DNA of 21,382 nucleotides from a virus: IMG/VR virus record IMGVR_UViG_3300046368_000150, positions 1-21,382 of that record; one strand, 5' to 3'. A model generated the notes under the pieces. That model ran no database searches, had not been told where the DNA came from, and saw only the letters and a program-made list of their open reading frames with translations. The translations under genes were made by a program, and so were the position numbers. The stretch's first letter is position 1; each line of letters starts with the position of its first letter. Of this stretch, positions 14,063 through 21,382 are shown one piece after another.

Positions 14063-14413
14063 TCACCATGCCGAAAGCGCAACGCGCTTCCATATTGCTG
14101 TACTGCCATTATATGATGCCGTGCAGACGTAAATATAATTCGTATCCCAGCTAATCATTCCAGAGACATCACCGGCAGATCCAACATTTGAAGCCGGTAC
14201 AGATTGCTGCGTTGCTAATTGCCGAAATGATCCATCCAAAGAAACAACAGCATATTTCTTGCTTTCATCCCAAAGAAAAACACCATCCTCTGATGGATTG
14301 TCAGAAGATCCTTTAAATGAAATCTTAGATAAGTTTCTTTGAAGATATTGCGATAACTGTCTCCCCCATTCAGCCAAATCTACACCTATCGGCGGGGGCA
14401 ATGGACTAGGCAT
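14063..14413 (-). CDS. conserved small virion-module protein (116 aa)
   Basis: The ATG overlaps the upstream stop by one base (TAATG). A proline-rich N-terminus (MPSPLPPPIGVDLAEWGRQL) and amphipathic helix (about residues 9-30) lead into a beta-rich region: GVFLWDESKKYAVVS (about 44-58) and GDVSGMISWDTNYIYVCTAS (about 81-100), ending WKRVALSAW. The C-terminal block is very common in uncultured marine phages as I remember and looks like a small beta-sandwich or fibre-head motif. The neighbours point to tail assembly. Its precise function is not known. Confidence 0.8.
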   Translation of the reverse strand: MPSPLPPPIGVDLAEWGRQLSQYLQRNLSKISFKGSSDNPSEDGVFLWDESKKYAVVSLDGSFRQLATQQSVPASNVGSAGDVSGMISWDTNYIYVCTASYNGSTAIWKRVALSAW

Positions 14414-15915
14414 TATCTTTTACCTGCTGGCAAAGTATCAACCCTCATGTTTCCAACACGCCAATCAGCGTTTGTTACTCCCTCAATCCTCATTCTCATT
14501 TGACGCCCAGAAAACCTTACACCTGTAGGATTGGCTGGTGCATATGGCCCATGCTCTTGCTCAGACCCATTTGGATAAAACCTTGTTTTAAATTTTACTT
14601 GCACTTGGCCCTGCGTAGCCTCATCAGGAATAAGCTGCATCACATTCATAATGTTATCGCCATTACCTAATGAAATAGGGCCGGTTTCAGCAAAAACTGA
14701 TTGGCTGTCGTATGCGTGTCCAACCTCATGCTCATATAATGTTTTATTATTTCCAGCAAGCAAAGCAAACCTAAATACGCCCCTTGCAACACCAGAGGAT
14801 CGGCCAAGATCACCAATAACCCAATGGTTTTCTTGAAAATCATAAGCAACATATTTATCTATATCTGCGCTACCAGAAGAACAATAAAACCACCAGATTT
14901 CATTATATTCTGTATTAGCCCACGCCCAAACTTGACTTTGCTGCGACCTGTTAAAGTTGTTAAAAACATGATCGTGAACATCGCACGGCAATTCTCTAAC
15001 ACCATTGCCATCAAAATGATGAAAGCCCCGCTGACCCATCCAAAAAACACCGGCATCAACATCAGCAGCCGCTTTTCGTGAAATTGCACCACACGCGGTT
15101 CCTACTCTTTGGTTTGAGTAAACATACGGTGGCCCCAAATATCTCATGGCATGAGCGTCTACATCAGTAATAATTAAAGTTTGCCCGCGTGTTCTAATCC
15201 CTTGCATAATTTGCCCAGATGTTTGCAGCAAAATATCACCGGCTTCATTTGTTGTAGCGGGTGTCCATACAGTGTTTGCCTCACGATCACACCACTGCAC
15301 CTTTCTAGGATCATCACCCGCTCCTAGCGCAAAAATAAACCGTTCTTCTGTAACGACTAAACCTAAATTTTTAGTTGGTGCGTTTGTCAAAACAGAAGCC
15401 GTAGAGGGATTGGCTGATTTATCCCAATACCAAATTCTGCCATCTGATGAAGAAGAAGCTATTAAATCCTCACCCCAATTATCTATTGACCAAGTTGTAG
15501 CCTCGTCAAAATTACCATCATTGGGCCGCGCTGTTCCATATTCAGTTTCACCATAATCACCATAACCATATCCAGTAATTACACTGCCACGCTCTAACTC
15601 AGGAACCCGCCGTGCCGAAACATTATTCAATGAGCTTGGAGTAATGGCCGTTAATGTACCACCGCCATTCATTAACTTTAACTCATTATATGAACCGCCA
15701 GCTATATAAGCTGTGCCATCATTTGCTTCCCACGAATGCATGCCCCGCAATGTATTTGATGCAAAACTAGCTTTTCTTGTTTGCCACCCCTTTACAGGCC
15801 GCAAACTATTATCACGCCAACGAACTAAACTGCCATCACGCCATCTACCAGTTTGCTCTAAATCAGTGCCATTTCGGTAAAATCCTGCGGGTATATCTAA
15901 GGGTACTAAAGTCAT
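14413..15915 (-). CDS. tail protein resembling P22 gp10-type stabilisation protein (500 aa)
   Basis: AGGATCGG precedes the ATG. The N-terminus IPAGFYRNGTDLEQTGRWRD is a common opening in marine phage tail proteins. The whole protein is beta-rich with repeated aromatic 'W' strands (for example DNWGEDLIASSSSDGRIWYW and VFWMGQRGFHHFDGNG), which suggests a beta-propeller. Length is similar to P22 gp10 (472), the packaged-DNA stabilisation and tail hub protein. It is encoded in the expected place between portal-side genes and fibres. The similarity is from fold-like appearance and synteny, so the exact homology needs a profile search. Confidence 0.65.
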   Translation of the reverse strand: MTLVPLDIPAGFYRNGTDLEQTGRWRDGSLVRWRDNSLRPVKGWQTRKASFASNTLRGMHSWEANDGTAYIAGGSYNELKLMNGGGTLTAITPSSLNNVSARRVPELERGSVITGYGYGDYGETEYGTARPNDGNFDEATTWSIDNWGEDLIASSSSDGRIWYWDKSANPSTASVLTNAPTKNLGLVVTEERFIFALGAGDDPRKVQWCDREANTVWTPATTNEAGDILLQTSGQIMQGIRTRGQTLIITDVDAHAMRYLGPPYVYSNQRVGTACGAISRKAAADVDAGVFWMGQRGFHHFDGNGVRELPCDVHDHVFNNFNRSQQSQVWAWANTEYNEIWWFYCSSGSADIDKYVAYDFQENHWVIGDLGRSSGVARGVFRFALLAGNNKTLYEHEVGHAYDSQSVFAETGPISLGNGDNIMNVMQLIPDEATQGQVQVKFKTRFYPNGSEQEHGPYAPANPTGVRFSGRQMRMRIEGVTNADWRVGNMRVDTLPAGKR

Positions 15916-15928
15916 TTACCGATCCTGA

Positions 15929-16813
15929 TTACAGGGTTGCGTTAGAGTTTACATTTCCAGCCACACTTAAATTGCCACTACTATCTAAAGTCATTAAAAC
16001 TGTTGTGCCGTTCTTGAACTGCAAGGTTGTTCCAGACTTTACAATTTCCCAATGCCCGCCAGTACCACCAGAAATAAAATGGCTATCTGCGGTAACGGTG
16101 TCATCCTTTAAAAGAACGCTATCAATAGTTACGCCTGTATTAGATGAAACTTCTGTAATTGTATTTGTGTAAAGGTGGTTGCCAGAACCTACGTTTAAGC
16201 TTCCTGTTAATGTGCCGCCACCAGTAGATAGCTTTCCATCAATCTGTGTTTGTACAGCAGACGAAACGCCAGATAAACGCCCAAGCTCCGTAGATGTCAC
16301 GGCTGAAACTGCGACCTTACCGCTTCCATTTGATATAACAGCACGATTTACCGTTAAATTAGACCCATCAATTGTTGTAGCTGCCCCAGTTATAGTAGGT
16401 TGTTTTCCATTTAATTGCGTTTGAATATTGCTGCTTACATTATTTAAATGTCCTAACTCTGTAGTAGTGATCGTTGAAGATACCGCCACCTTACCGCTGC
16501 TATTTGAAATAAGCGCCCGTCCAGCAGTTAAATTACTGCTTGCGATAGTCGTTGCCCCGCCAGTGATAGCAGCGGGAATGTTATTTAATTGCGTAGCTGT
16601 AGCCGTAATTGCTGTGCCGTTTACAGCCCAATTTCCCCCCGATAGATCAGGTCTAATGCGCTCTACGGTTTGGCTGTCTCCATCAGTATAAGACGCCCCG
16701 TATAAAAGGCTGTCTATTTTATCCCAATTTTCGTTTAACTCACCGCCCCAGCTATCGCTATCTGCGCCTACAACTGGCTTATTAAATTTATAATTTGTGG
16801 TATTTACAGCCAT
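15929..16813 (-). CDS. tail fibre-like protein with internal duplication (294 aa)
   Basis: The N-terminus NYKFNKPVVGADSDSWGGEL followed by NENWDKID is the typical particle-binding start of phage tail fibres ('TTN..F.kP..G.d.d.WG..lN.Nwd.iD'). Residues 83-139 and 141-195 are two copies of a unit that includes ATTI, SNLT, SNGSGKVAVS, TELG, VSS and QTQ. The C-terminal 90 residues are beta-rich and end in GNLSVAGNVNSNATL without an S74 domain. It would be one of several host-attachment candidates. It lies upstream of the tail protein, in the same operon as three other fibre-module genes. Confidence 0.8.
   Translation of the reverse strand: MAVNTTNYKFNKPVVGADSDSWGGELNENWDKIDSLLYGASYTDGDSQTVERIRPDLSGGNWAVNGTAITATATQLNNIPAAITGGATTIASSNLTAGRALISNSSGKVAVSSTITTTELGHLNNVSSNIQTQLNGKQPTITGAATTIDGSNLTVNRAVISNGSGKVAVSAVTSTELGRLSGVSSAVQTQIDGKLSTGGGTLTGSLNVGSGNHLYTNTITEVSSNTGVTIDSVLLKDDTVTADSHFISGGTGGHWEIVKSGTTLQFKNGTTVLMTLDSSGNLSVAGNVNSNATL
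16229..16567 (-). repeat. two tandem 55-57-codon repeats in a fibre gene
   Basis: The two copies (16397-16567 and 16229-16393) code for ITGGATTIASSNLT... and ITGAATTIDGSNLT..., with the same order of motifs and similar DNA. The copies have diverged at many third positions, so the duplication is not recent. Such units often vary in number among related fibres. Confidence 0.75.
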
Positions 16814-16847: not shown

Positions 16848-18041
16848 CTATGCGGCCTCAGTCCATGTTTCACTACTAACTGCTTGTTCAGTCCACGTTC
16901 CATCGGAAATTTGTTGCACCGTATAAACTTCCACGCTTTGGAAAGGCTCTAACCAACCCCTTATTTTAACATCAAAACCAGAATATAAGAAAGATCCGCT
17001 TGCAAAATCAACAGTCATAACTTTGGTTATCGTGACATCAAACACAGCCAGCGAAAACGCGCCGCTATCGGCTGGCATTCTGCTGCCAACCCTAAACAGA
17101 GCATTATTGCCAGTATAAGCAAACGACCCACCCGCAAGATCAACATTCATCGCCTTTTTAAACGGGATGACATTACCAGTTGTTGCAAAAACGCCAGCAT
17201 CAAGCTGCGTATTCATCGCAATTCTGAATGACGCATCTTGACCGGAATAGGTAAACACACCAGCCGGTGTAAATTCTGTAATATCTTCAGTTATGGATTG
17301 GCCGGTAACAACGAACAATGCATGAGAGGCATCAAACCTAAGCGCCTTTTGCAGCGTCACAGCTTGCCCTGTGGATGCGAAAGATCCAGACAGTACATCT
17401 ACGCTCAGATTGAACGACATAGGCGCTGCATGGCCCGTTAGAGCGAAGCTGCCAGCTTCTACAGCCTCAGATATATCTTCAGTAATATTCTGGCCTGTAG
17501 TCGCAAAAGATCCAGATGCCAGAGAGATGTTAAACTGCGCATTAACCGCCGCGTCTTGACCCGTTAAGGCAAAGCTTCCAGCGTCAAATACTTCACTGAT
17601 TTTTTCAGTGATTTCATGTCCGGTTAAAACAAATGAACCAGAGGCCGCTGAAATGTTAAGCTGCGCATTTACATCTGCATCTTGACCAGTAAGAGAAAAA
17701 GAGCCGCTCTCTGCGTTTTCCCTTAACGCCTTTTGCAGCGTTACATCTTGGCCGGTAAGACCAAACGAAACGGGTTCAGCAATCAGGCCAAAGCCAAGCT
17801 CAAAGATAACAGTTTGACCTGAGACAGCGTAAGAACCCGCCGCCAGATCCACATTCATCGTTTTGCTAAACTCAGCCGCCCTACCATTTAGAACGTACTG
17901 ACCATCAGGCACAAACTCAGTGATGAGTTTTGCTGCGCCCTGCCCACTAACCGCAAACGTGCCAGTATTTACCTCAAAGATATAATCCTGAGTTCCTGAG
18001 CTTGCTATTGGCCCTGCGGCTAGTGGGGTAAAGCCCAGCAT
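16848..18041 (-). CDS. tandem-repeat beta protein of the fibre module (397 aa)
   Basis: After a short leader, almost the whole protein consists of about 16 units of 19-23 residues built on 'aGSFaLTGQdat...', such as SGSFSLTGQDADVNAQLNIS and AGSFALTGQDAAVNAQFNIS. The alternation of small residues with aromatic Phe/Tyr and Thr-Gly suggests a beta-solenoid or stacked-hairpin rod. The last 27 residues carry two WTE motifs (GTWTEQ and ETWTEA). There is no signal peptide and no cysteine. It is encoded between two fibre genes and two assembly factors, so a rod or adhesin-like part of the tail is likely. The ribosome binding site is poor; the start sits one base after the preceding TAA, so translation is probably coupled. 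Confidence 0.75.
   Translation of the reverse strand: MLGFTPLAAGPIASSGTQDYIFEVNTGTFAVSGQGAAKLITEFVPDGQYVLNGRAAEFSKTMNVDLAAGSYAVSGQTVIFELGFGLIAEPVSFGLTGQDVTLQKALRENAESGSFSLTGQDADVNAQLNISAASGSFVLTGHEITEKISEVFDAGSFALTGQDAAVNAQFNISLASGSFATTGQNITEDISEAVEAGSFALTGHAAPMSFNLSVDVLSGSFASTGQAVTLQKALRFDASHALFVVTGQSITEDITEFTPAGVFTYSGQDASFRIAMNTQLDAGVFATTGNVIPFKKAMNVDLAGGSFAYTGNNALFRVGSRMPADSGAFSLAVFDVTITKVMTVDFASGSFLYSGFDVKIRGWLEPFQSVEVYTVQQISDGTWTEQAVSSETWTEAA
16945..17975 (-). repeat. about 16 tandem 'GSFxxTGQ' repeats
   Basis: The units are 57-69 bases long and code for the GSF-x-x-TGQ consensus. Central units (for example those with DADVNAQ, DAAVNAQ, ITEDISE and ITEDITE) fall into at least two alternating subtypes, hinting at duplication of two-unit blocks. 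The DNA copies are diverged but clearly related. Confidence 0.8.
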
Positions 18042-18042
18042 T

Positions 18043-18267
18043 TTAGTTTGCTACAACTTCTTTTTCTGGATGTTCTTCCAATGATTTAATCAAAGAAGAA
18101 ACGAATGCATCATATGCTGCTTTTTCCCGATCAGCGGCCATTTGCGCTTGCTTAGTGCGAGCTTGACATTCTTTTACTTGAGCCAAGAAATATTGTTGCT
18201 GGTCATTAAACCCAGACGGGTCATATTCTTTATCGTTTATGTAGATAACATTATTTTCTTCAGCCAT
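18043..18267 (-). CDS. small helical protein, possible fibre chaperone (74 aa)
   Basis: TAGGGG precedes the ATG. The N-terminus has a short strand motif (NNVIYINDKEYDPSGFNDQQ), and the rest (about residues 22-66) is a long helix with charged heptads. This resembles the small DUF6447-like proteins seen in the fibre region of marine phages; I make this link from memory of the pattern, not from a search. It lies directly upstream of the tandem-repeat protein and downstream of a probable tail assembly chaperone. An assembly or adaptor role is possible. Confidence 0.7.
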   Translation of the reverse strand: MAEENNVIYINDKEYDPSGFNDQQQYFLAQVKECQARTKQAQMAADREKAAYDAFVSSLIKSLEEHPEKEVVAN

Positions 18268-19112: not shown

Positions 19113-21382
19113 TTAGCTTTTCATGGATTGGATTTCAGCTTTCAGATCATTGATCTGAGTTTGCTGTTCTTTGATCGCCTCAATCAGCAGGCCGACCATG
19201 TTGCCGTAAGCTACGTTTTTAAATCCCGTTTCTGGATTTTGACGAACTGCCTCTGGCAAAACCTTTTCAACGTCTTGAGCAATTACGCCCGTAGCACGTT
19301 CCGTAAAGTTTGGTTTTTTGTTAGTTTCATTTTCTGAAAAAGCGTCGTTATCCCAATCAAAAGTAACACCGCGCAAAGCAGTTACTTTGTCTACCGCACC
19401 TTCAATAGTCTCAATGTTCTTTTTATAGCGAATGTCTGAGGTGCTGTTTAAATCACCATTTACGGTCACACCGCTGCTAGACGTTTCTACCTTGGACGCC
19501 CCATTATGGTACATTCTGGTGTAAGAATTATGAACGGCGTAAAACAGCCACTCATTGTTTACATCGTTATAAATACCTGTGCTGCTGCTGTTGTCATGCA
19601 TAAACACAGCACGACCACCAATGCTGTAGCCTTCCCAACCAGTATGAGCGCCACCATCAATTTGAATAGAGCCGTAGTTGCCAGAGACAGGCTGGAAATA
19701 GCCGTTGCCGCTATCGCCTAAACGAACACCTGTGGTATTTACATATAACTCAGTTGAACCCCCTACAGTCATACTAATTTGGTCAGTATCAAACTTTATG
19801 TATGTGTTGGTGTCGCCGTGGTGGAACAACTGATCGCATCCGTAGATGTCATAGTTATTCATATCTAAGTGGCGAGCCATTTCAAGATAAGTCGCACCTG
19901 TGGTGAAGTTAGCGACATTATTGTGGTAGAGCGTAACTCCACCGTTTTCTTGCATCTGCACAGCCCAATCGCCGTTCTCATCATCATAAAAACCAGCCGT
20001 TGAGCCATCGGTCATAAATGACCAGCGACCTTCATTTGAGCTATTACGAATTTGCAAGCCAGCCCAAGTAGAAGTTGATGATGTAATTTGCAGCAAGTCT
20101 GCGCGGTCTGTACTCTCTGCAAGATTTACTTGAGACCCAATGTTGATGCCCGTGACAGAGGGTGTTGCTGGTAAGCTGTAGTTGTTAGCGTTGGTGGCAA
20201 TTGTATCTAGCTTCGTTCCATCCGCTGCAACATCGCGGCCATCAACGGTGCCCCCAACAAGGATACTACCGCTTGTCCAGATATTAGTACCTAACGCAAC
20301 TTTTGGAGAACCGTTTATAACGTGAACAGTCTGATGACTGCTTGCCATAGTACCATTACCGTTGTTTGGATGGTAGTAAGATAAACCATATTGATTGCCA
20401 AAATCAGATCCGTTAGCAGCATTGCGGTAAGATGTTCCCATACTCCATATATGTTGCGTTTTGTAACTATCATATGTTCCAAAAATACCTTGATTACGGT
20501 TTGCAGTAGGTACAATAATAGCGGCGGTAAGGTTATCATTGGCATCACTGCGTAAGAAACTAGCGCCGTGAATACCATCAACAGTATCAGCATCACCAAC
20601 ACTCACACTCAGAGTAACATTGGCTGAACCATCCCAAGATACAGAACCAGATGCGTCACCACTTAGGGATAGTGTTCTGGCTGTAGTCCATTTGTCAGCA
20701 TTAGGGTGATACGCATCATTGAAAACACGCTGTAAGCCAGAACCTTCATCTACTTTAAAGGCTCCATTTTTACTTTTTTGTATATCCCAGCCGCCCCAAT
20801 TTGCATCCAAGAAACCGTACTCTGTGCTGCCCCCATAAAGCTGAATGCAATGAGCACCAGCGCCATTAAACATAGTAAGCCCGACAGTTGTTAAAGTGTC
20901 AGTTGGTTGAATTTTTAAGTTGCGAGCAACGTTGCTGCCTGCCCTAAATCTCACGCCGTTGACGTTTAAGTCACCAGTTATAGTACCGCCGCTTAAAGGT
21001 AGTTTGGTGCTGTCAGCTACAGTGATATTCGCAGAGCCGTTAAAAGAAACACCGTTGATGGTTCTTGCAGTTGTTAGCGTGTCTGCATTGGGGTGGTAGT
21101 TATCGTGAAATACTCTTTGACCGCCAAAGTAACCTTGAGCATAAAGCTCCCCAGAAACATAGAGGTTATTACCGCCACCACTAGCACCAATTTGTACATG
21201 TTGCCCTGCGTTGCTATATTGAAGCCATAGATCATCTGTACCAGAAGATGAGCTACTTTTGCCCCAAATATGCCTGACTTGTATGCGTCCATCGCCAGAA
21301 CCGCCAACATTTAACATACCGTTGCCCGAGTTGTACGTTGAGCTACTGTCAATAGTTAAATCACCAGTCACAGTATCGCCAG
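19113..21382 (-). CDS. tail fibre with C-terminal S74 chaperone (5' end outside the window)
   Basis: The frame is open to the right edge, so the visible 752 residues (numbered from the first in-frame GTG, 21371) lack the true N-terminus. The body is a long beta-rich fibre with repeated motifs such as YHPNAD, TTART and GSANVTL and a MTGDLTID-like trimer segment. The C-terminal 108 residues form a peptidase S74 intramolecular chaperone: SDIRYKKNIETI with the presumed catalytic Ser at about residue 645 (codon 19437-19439) and its Lys, then ATGVIAQDVEKVLPEAV and a terminal coiled coil (LLIEAIKEQQTQINDLKAEI). The chaperone trimerises the fibre and then cuts itself off just before the serine. It is the likely main receptor-binding protein. 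Confidence 0.92.
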   Translation of the reverse strand, partial: GDTVTGDLTIDSSSTYNSGNGMLNVGGSGDGRIQVRHIWGKSSSSSGTDDLWLQYSNAGQHVQIGASGGGNNLYVSGELYAQGYFGGQRVFHDNYHPNADTLTTARTINGVSFNGSANITVADSTKLPLSGGTITGDLNVNGVRFRAGSNVARNLKIQPTDTLTTVGLTMFNGAGAHCIQLYGGSTEYGFLDANWGGWDIQKSKNGAFKVDEGSGLQRVFNDAYHPNADKWTTARTLSLSGDASGSVSWDGSANVTLSVSVGDADTVDGIHGASFLRSDANDNLTAAIIVPTANRNQGIFGTYDSYKTQHIWSMGTSYRNAANGSDFGNQYGLSYYHPNNGNGTMASSHQTVHVINGSPKVALGTNIWTSGSILVGGTVDGRDVAADGTKLDTIATNANNYSLPATPSVTGINIGSQVNLAESTDRADLLQITSSTSTWAGLQIRNSSNEGRWSFMTDGSTAGFYDDENGDWAVQMQENGGVTLYHNNVANFTTGATYLEMARHLDMNNYDIYGCDQLFHHGDTNTYIKFDTDQISMTVGGSTELYVNTTGVRLGDSGNGYFQPVSGNYGSIQIDGGAHTGWEGYSIGGRAVFMHDNSSSTGIYNDVNNEWLFYAVHNSYTRMYHNGASKVETSSSGVTVNGDLNSTSDIRYKKNIETIEGAVDKVTALRGVTFDWDNDAFSENETNKKPNFTERATGVIAQDVEKVLPEAVRQNPETGFKNVAYGNMVGLLIEAIKEQQTQINDLKAEIQSMKS

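Follow-up and report, generated by a model that had tools for sequence, protein, structure and literature searches.

A capped array of GxFxxTGQ repeats in the tail-fibre module of uncultivated podoviruses: a candidate structural rod or spacer

What does a protein built largely of short tandem repeats contribute to a phage tail, and does it take part in the choice of the host? This question is raised by a gene on the minus strand (16848..18041) encoding a 397 aa protein, homologues of which occur on other viral contigs. The window analyzed here is the entire 21.4-kb IMG/VR record, in which podovirus portal, scaffold, capsid, and tail genes are present; its source is probably a marine, uncultivated short-tailed phage. 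The nearest match of the portal within isolated phages belongs to Octadecabacter Antarctic DB virus 2 (49%), a podovirus whose neck is of the P22 type (PMC9239159). The initial annotation proposed that the repeat protein could set reach or specificity of the tail and that recombination-driven changes in repeat number could tune the host range. We favor, at a probability of roughly 60%, a different reading, in which the protein would have a structural role as a rod or spacer within the tail apparatus.

The proposed location within the receptor-binding module is confirmed by the adjoining genes, all encoded on the minus strand. The module opens with a tail fibre carrying a Peptidase_S74 chaperone domain (19113..21380), the 5' end of which is lost at the contig end, and a tail fibre assembly protein (Phage_tail_APC, PF16778; 18277..18582) assigned by Pfam and PHROG. 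Directly upstream of the repeat gene lies a 74-aa ORF (18043..18267), its stop being located one base ahead of the start codon of the repeat gene. The module continues downstream with a second fibre-like protein of 294 aa (15929..16813), assigned as phrog_16122 virion structural protein, and a further virion structural protein (14413..15915, phrog_3287). The latter is labelled phage stabilization protein in relatives, i.e., stabilisation/nozzle-like, and detection of its homologue in the particle proteome is noted in the record of Sinorhizobium phage phiM5. Location within the tail-fibre module, one of the marks of tail appendage proteins, is thereby given for the repeat protein; another, a fibre domain recognisable by Pfam or PHROG, was absent. 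Sequence searches against Pfam, PHROG, and PDB returned no family, with scattered weak PHROG matches only, and literature searches found no paper on the GxFxxTGQ repeat. Two homologues (L045 and L035) weakly hit unrelated beta domains in Pfam; these hits were discarded as repeat artefacts. Judged by its sequence, the protein apparently represents an undescribed capped repeat family, although of an ordinary kind of phage part, namely a beta-repeat tail component.

A unit profile of the GxFxxTGQ core, trained on the repeat-protein family itself, detected 16 tandem units with successive spacings of 20, 22, 22, 22, 22, 20, 22, 20, 22, 22, 20, 22, 22, 22, and 22 residues. The weakest of these units scores 7.0; in shuffled sequences, the best-scoring site reaches 1.2 at the 95th percentile. 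Since the profile originates from the same family, BLOSUM62 self-similarity served as an independent check; it peaks at lags of 22, 42, and 64 (0.43, 0.43, and 0.37), with none of 500 shuffles above -0.24. Both analyses bear out the initially described array of about 16 GSFxxTGQ copies, the details of which require some correction. Unit lengths are exactly 20 or 22 residues instead of ranging from 19 to 23, and the two unit types do exist but do not strictly alternate. The array does not make up almost the entire product either; it covers residues 27-370 (16932..17963), about 87% of the protein, and the ends form caps, including a second, short repeat at the C-terminus.

The N-terminal cap (residues 1-26, 17964..18041; MLGFTPLAAGPIASSGTQDYIFEVNT) lies outside the array and is conserved family-wide in the alignments. 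It is followed by unit 1, a special 20-residue unit (residues 27-46, 17904..17963) containing GAAKLIT, the most conserved motif of the family with invariant or nearly invariant alignment columns. At the opposite end, the alignments define the KIRGW motif within the last unit (residues 359-363, 16953..16967) as landmark of the C-terminal cap, and a C-terminal tail (16851..16928) of W/Y-T-x-Q repeats of ~10 residues (YTVQ..TWTEQ..TWTEAA). The number of these W/Y-T-E-Q repeats varies from ~1 to 5 in a comparison of the window with L060, L078, and L045; the window and its relative L002 carry one WTEQ repeat more than most siblings.

Within the units, hydrophobic residues occupy positions 3, 5, 10, 12, 16, and 18, corresponding to an in/out alternation that is interrupted by the TGQD turn. 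The two-residue steps in unit length would be compatible with keeping this alternation. The protein thus combines near-constant tandem units with a regular hydrophobic pattern, as is characteristic of beta-solenoids. Structure prediction of the full protein, proposed beforehand as a check, returned a repetitive all-beta fold at low confidence (pLDDT 55-61). The AlphaFold2 model from the single sequence reached pLDDT 61 and pTM 0.62, and an alignment of 31 sequences brought no gain (pLDDT 55, pTM 0.53). Strand starts fall within one residue of the unit start at all 16 units of the alignment-based model and at 13 of 16 units of the model built from the single sequence. Foldseek searches with both models gave no match at E <= 0.001 (best E 0.7). 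For both models, beta-helix adhesins or tailspikes appear several times among the top-ranking PDB matches, none of them significant; such proteins (Sf6 and HK620 tailspikes, HMW1, pertactin) share repeating beta strands with the models, but neither a structural nor a sequence match is significant. The third weak match in the viral structure library, F8TV92 (919 aa), probably corresponds, judging from its length, to EBPR siphovirus 2 gp72, which carries the same repeats. The models therewith point to a beta-repetitive fold class as likely and make a beta-solenoid plausible as tertiary fold. Of the rod-like beta-solenoid initially suggested, the repetitive strands in register with the units hold, but the solenoid itself is not established at this model confidence and with non-significant Foldseek matches.

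The same pattern may be read as the shaft of a trimeric fibre similar to a triple beta-spiral, in which each unit would provide one strand-turn-strand step among three chains and a single-chain solenoid would be wrong. The strand-turn-strand hydrophobic pattern with its conserved Gly turn is in agreement with such an assembly, and an obligate trimer could explain the poor confidence of single-chain models. However, the repeats of triple beta-spirals measure about 15 residues in adenovirus and about 8 in reovirus, unlike the 20/22 residues found here, and we regard this architecture as unlikely.

Homologues were found on about 60 further metagenomic viral contigs (two overlapping scans of viral contigs comprising 19 and 62 loci), complete ones spanning 203 to 515 residues. 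Records of isolated or assembled phages contributed five weak matches, and two scans of genome contigs revealed no cellular or prophage relatives. The relatives commonly start with MLGFxPIAxxPIG or a variant thereof, followed by the first unit with GAAKLIT; extra units precede the GAAKLIT unit in L045, L074, and L078. In most lineages the last unit carries KIRGW and the C-terminal cap ends with WTEAA, the L035-L042 clade having another C-terminal end (VTVYGELIP...WQLVA). Spacings are highly uniform across the family: of 457 spacings, 424 measure 20 or 22 residues and 437 are even. The L035 clade, about 40% identical, shows the same run of 20 and 22 as the window across 13 spacings.

Unit counting in homologues, the second check named beforehand, revealed 7/8, 10, 11, 15, 16, and 21 units across the family, with the number tracking lineage in the tree of the neighbouring structural protein. 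The expected variability of repeat number consequently applies between lineages, but not among close relatives: all complete copies in the window clade have 16 units, with L016 (11 units) as the sole exception. An apparent count of 15 in several siblings turned out to be an artefact, the HALFFVTGQ unit being missed under a stricter threshold. Unit order is fixed as well, with a same-index identity of 0.91 compared with 0.31 elsewhere between the window protein and that of L002.

On DNA level, Tandem Repeats Finder reported no tandem repeats in the window, and its units share a mean DNA identity of 43% (best pair 68%). The repetition is therefore present on protein level only, and easy slippage appears unlikely from the sequence; as a source of variation in the window, slippage was rejected on these grounds. 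Neither the near-identical DNA repeats nor the copy-number differences between close relatives that are typical of slippage-tuned VNTR genes were found, the mosaic L016 being the one deviation from 16 units. Among the relatives examined, only L045 contains whole-unit DNA repeats; its true tandem repeats measure 66 bases (one unit), 132 bases (two units), and, in the WTEQ tail, 30 bases, showing that duplication does occur. The allele of L016 (5009-5854) is a mosaic of conserved ends and a different, shorter middle. Its DNA identity to the window is 85-90% in the initial 80 codons and 75-85% towards the end, and the middle is absent or only 46-77% alike; its shorter array hence arose from an exchange of the middle and not from slippage. 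This exchange and the duplications in L045 show how repeat number can change, but the window units are too diverged for easy slippage.

In close relatives, the repeat protein retains 87-94% identity (88-91% in complete copies) with a dN/dS of about 0.12-0.22, and 71% in the mosaic L016. For comparison, the structural neighbour is conserved at 95-99%, the second fibre at 61-95%, and the S74 fibre at 29-55% in full-length alignment. This difference between the repeat protein and the S74 fibre speaks against a role in specificity and fits a structural spacer. By sequence divergence, the S74 fibre is the fast-changing part, as receptor recognition would predict, and the repeat protein behaves as a structural component. 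It remains to weigh the reading as a receptor- or glycan-binding protein, in which type and number of the units would set host specificity and be tuned by recombination. The gene does sit in the receptor-binding module, unit number does differ between lineages, and the replaced central array of L016 as well as the tandem repeats of L045 show routes of change. These points are opposed by a conservation far above that of the S74 fibre, by the constancy of unit number in close relatives with one exception, and by the fixed unit order. We consider this reading doubtful, and the proposed tuning of specificity and host range is not supported by the identity values and the constant 16 units outside L016.

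For the structural rod or spacer, we propose the following arrangement. The N-terminal cap may dock onto the tail hub or the fibre base, and the units would stack into an elongated beta rod, either as beta-solenoid or as stacked hairpins. The KIRGW/WTEQ end might touch a partner, perhaps the neighbouring fibre, and unit number would set the length of the spacer, not the choice of the receptor. A more specific version, a modular spacer-ruler whose unit number follows main-fibre length and whose middle is exchanged while the caps stay fixed, tail reach thereby evolving independently of the choice of receptor, strikes us as quite improbable. A length ruler in the strict sense, its unit number adjusted to how long the main tail fibre is, is likewise improbable. 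Across 25 genomes, repeat-protein length correlates with that of the longest fibre ORF (Spearman 0.51, Pearson 0.87), but related genomes are non-independent and the correlation is confounded by ancestry. Reduced to 11 lineages, with hand-set lineage medians and in a comparison chosen after the data had been seen, values of Pearson 0.77 and Spearman 0.59 (p = 0.056) were obtained, dropping to a Spearman of 0.42 (p = 0.26) once the window clade and L016 were left out. In L016, the one window-clade genome with a shorter array (11 units), the S74 fibre is shorter too (710 aa vs 827-909). The suggestion that the protein sets tail reach can accordingly draw on a weak length correlation with the fibre, which ancestry confounds. 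The family supplies a natural set of rods, ranging from 7/8 to 21 units and borne on similar tails, with which tail reach could be measured apart from receptor specificity. Should the protein be only a rod, this would be a gain for annotation and not a surprise.

The slot within the tail-fibre module is kept, across wide divergence, in nearly all relatives for which sufficient flanking sequence exists, the family thus holding a fixed position in a widespread group of uncultivated podoviruses. Comparison with known systems extends this picture. The protein UOF81327 of Podoviridae sp. ctVRi840 and kin from Manatee Spring (MW202742) shares the 22-residue spacing and, like the repeat gene in the window, lies two genes ahead of a phage stabilization protein, but is only 25-30% identical and lacks the GAAKLIT and WTEAA caps. 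EBPR siphovirus 2 gp72 (JF412297; L022, 5017-7776) contains about 12 GxFxxTGQ-type units, spaced mostly by 18 and 20 residues; unlike the window protein, it belongs to a siphovirus and has its repeats joined to a ~500-residue C-terminal domain (phrog_8917, a PHROG of unknown function). In Octadecabacter Antarctic DB virus 2, gp11 occupies the same slot and shares a repeat-built middle and a WTEQ-type C-tail, for which this phage was the sole match in isolated phages. It differs in its repeat (ADNVEAASETTAPSIGQTHALT) and its N-terminal domain, sequence homology being confined to the tail. The first residues of gp11 (MAxPxVVQSRVxTxKST) match those of the adjoining tailspike gene gp10, suggesting a slot used for tail appendages. 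The available text of the paper on this phage reports no virion proteome (PMC9239159).

A non-virion protein, i.e., a secreted adhesin or accessory gene placed among the tail genes by chance, could be argued from the lack of a structural family match and of any proteome found to cover a homologue, but is highly improbable given the identical slot shared across wide divergence by almost all of the related genomes examined, the upstream ORF ending one base before the start codon, and the similar repeats N-terminal in the 919-aa protein of EBPR siphovirus 2 near a tail gene.

Two further observations were made in the course of this comparison. Gp11 of the Octadecabacter phage (L085, 7065-8591) is annotated as ribonuclease E, even though it combines a tailspike-like N-terminus with repeats of the ADNVEAASETTAP type and a C-tail of the WTEQ kind; this label is a probable misannotation of what looks like a repeat-built tail appendage. 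For p116 (14063-14413), most siblings show 91-99% identity, and L011/L034 and kin only 49%. This subclade carries a longer gene of 219 aa in its place within a surrounding block that is 96% identical, i.e., p116 was locally replaced.
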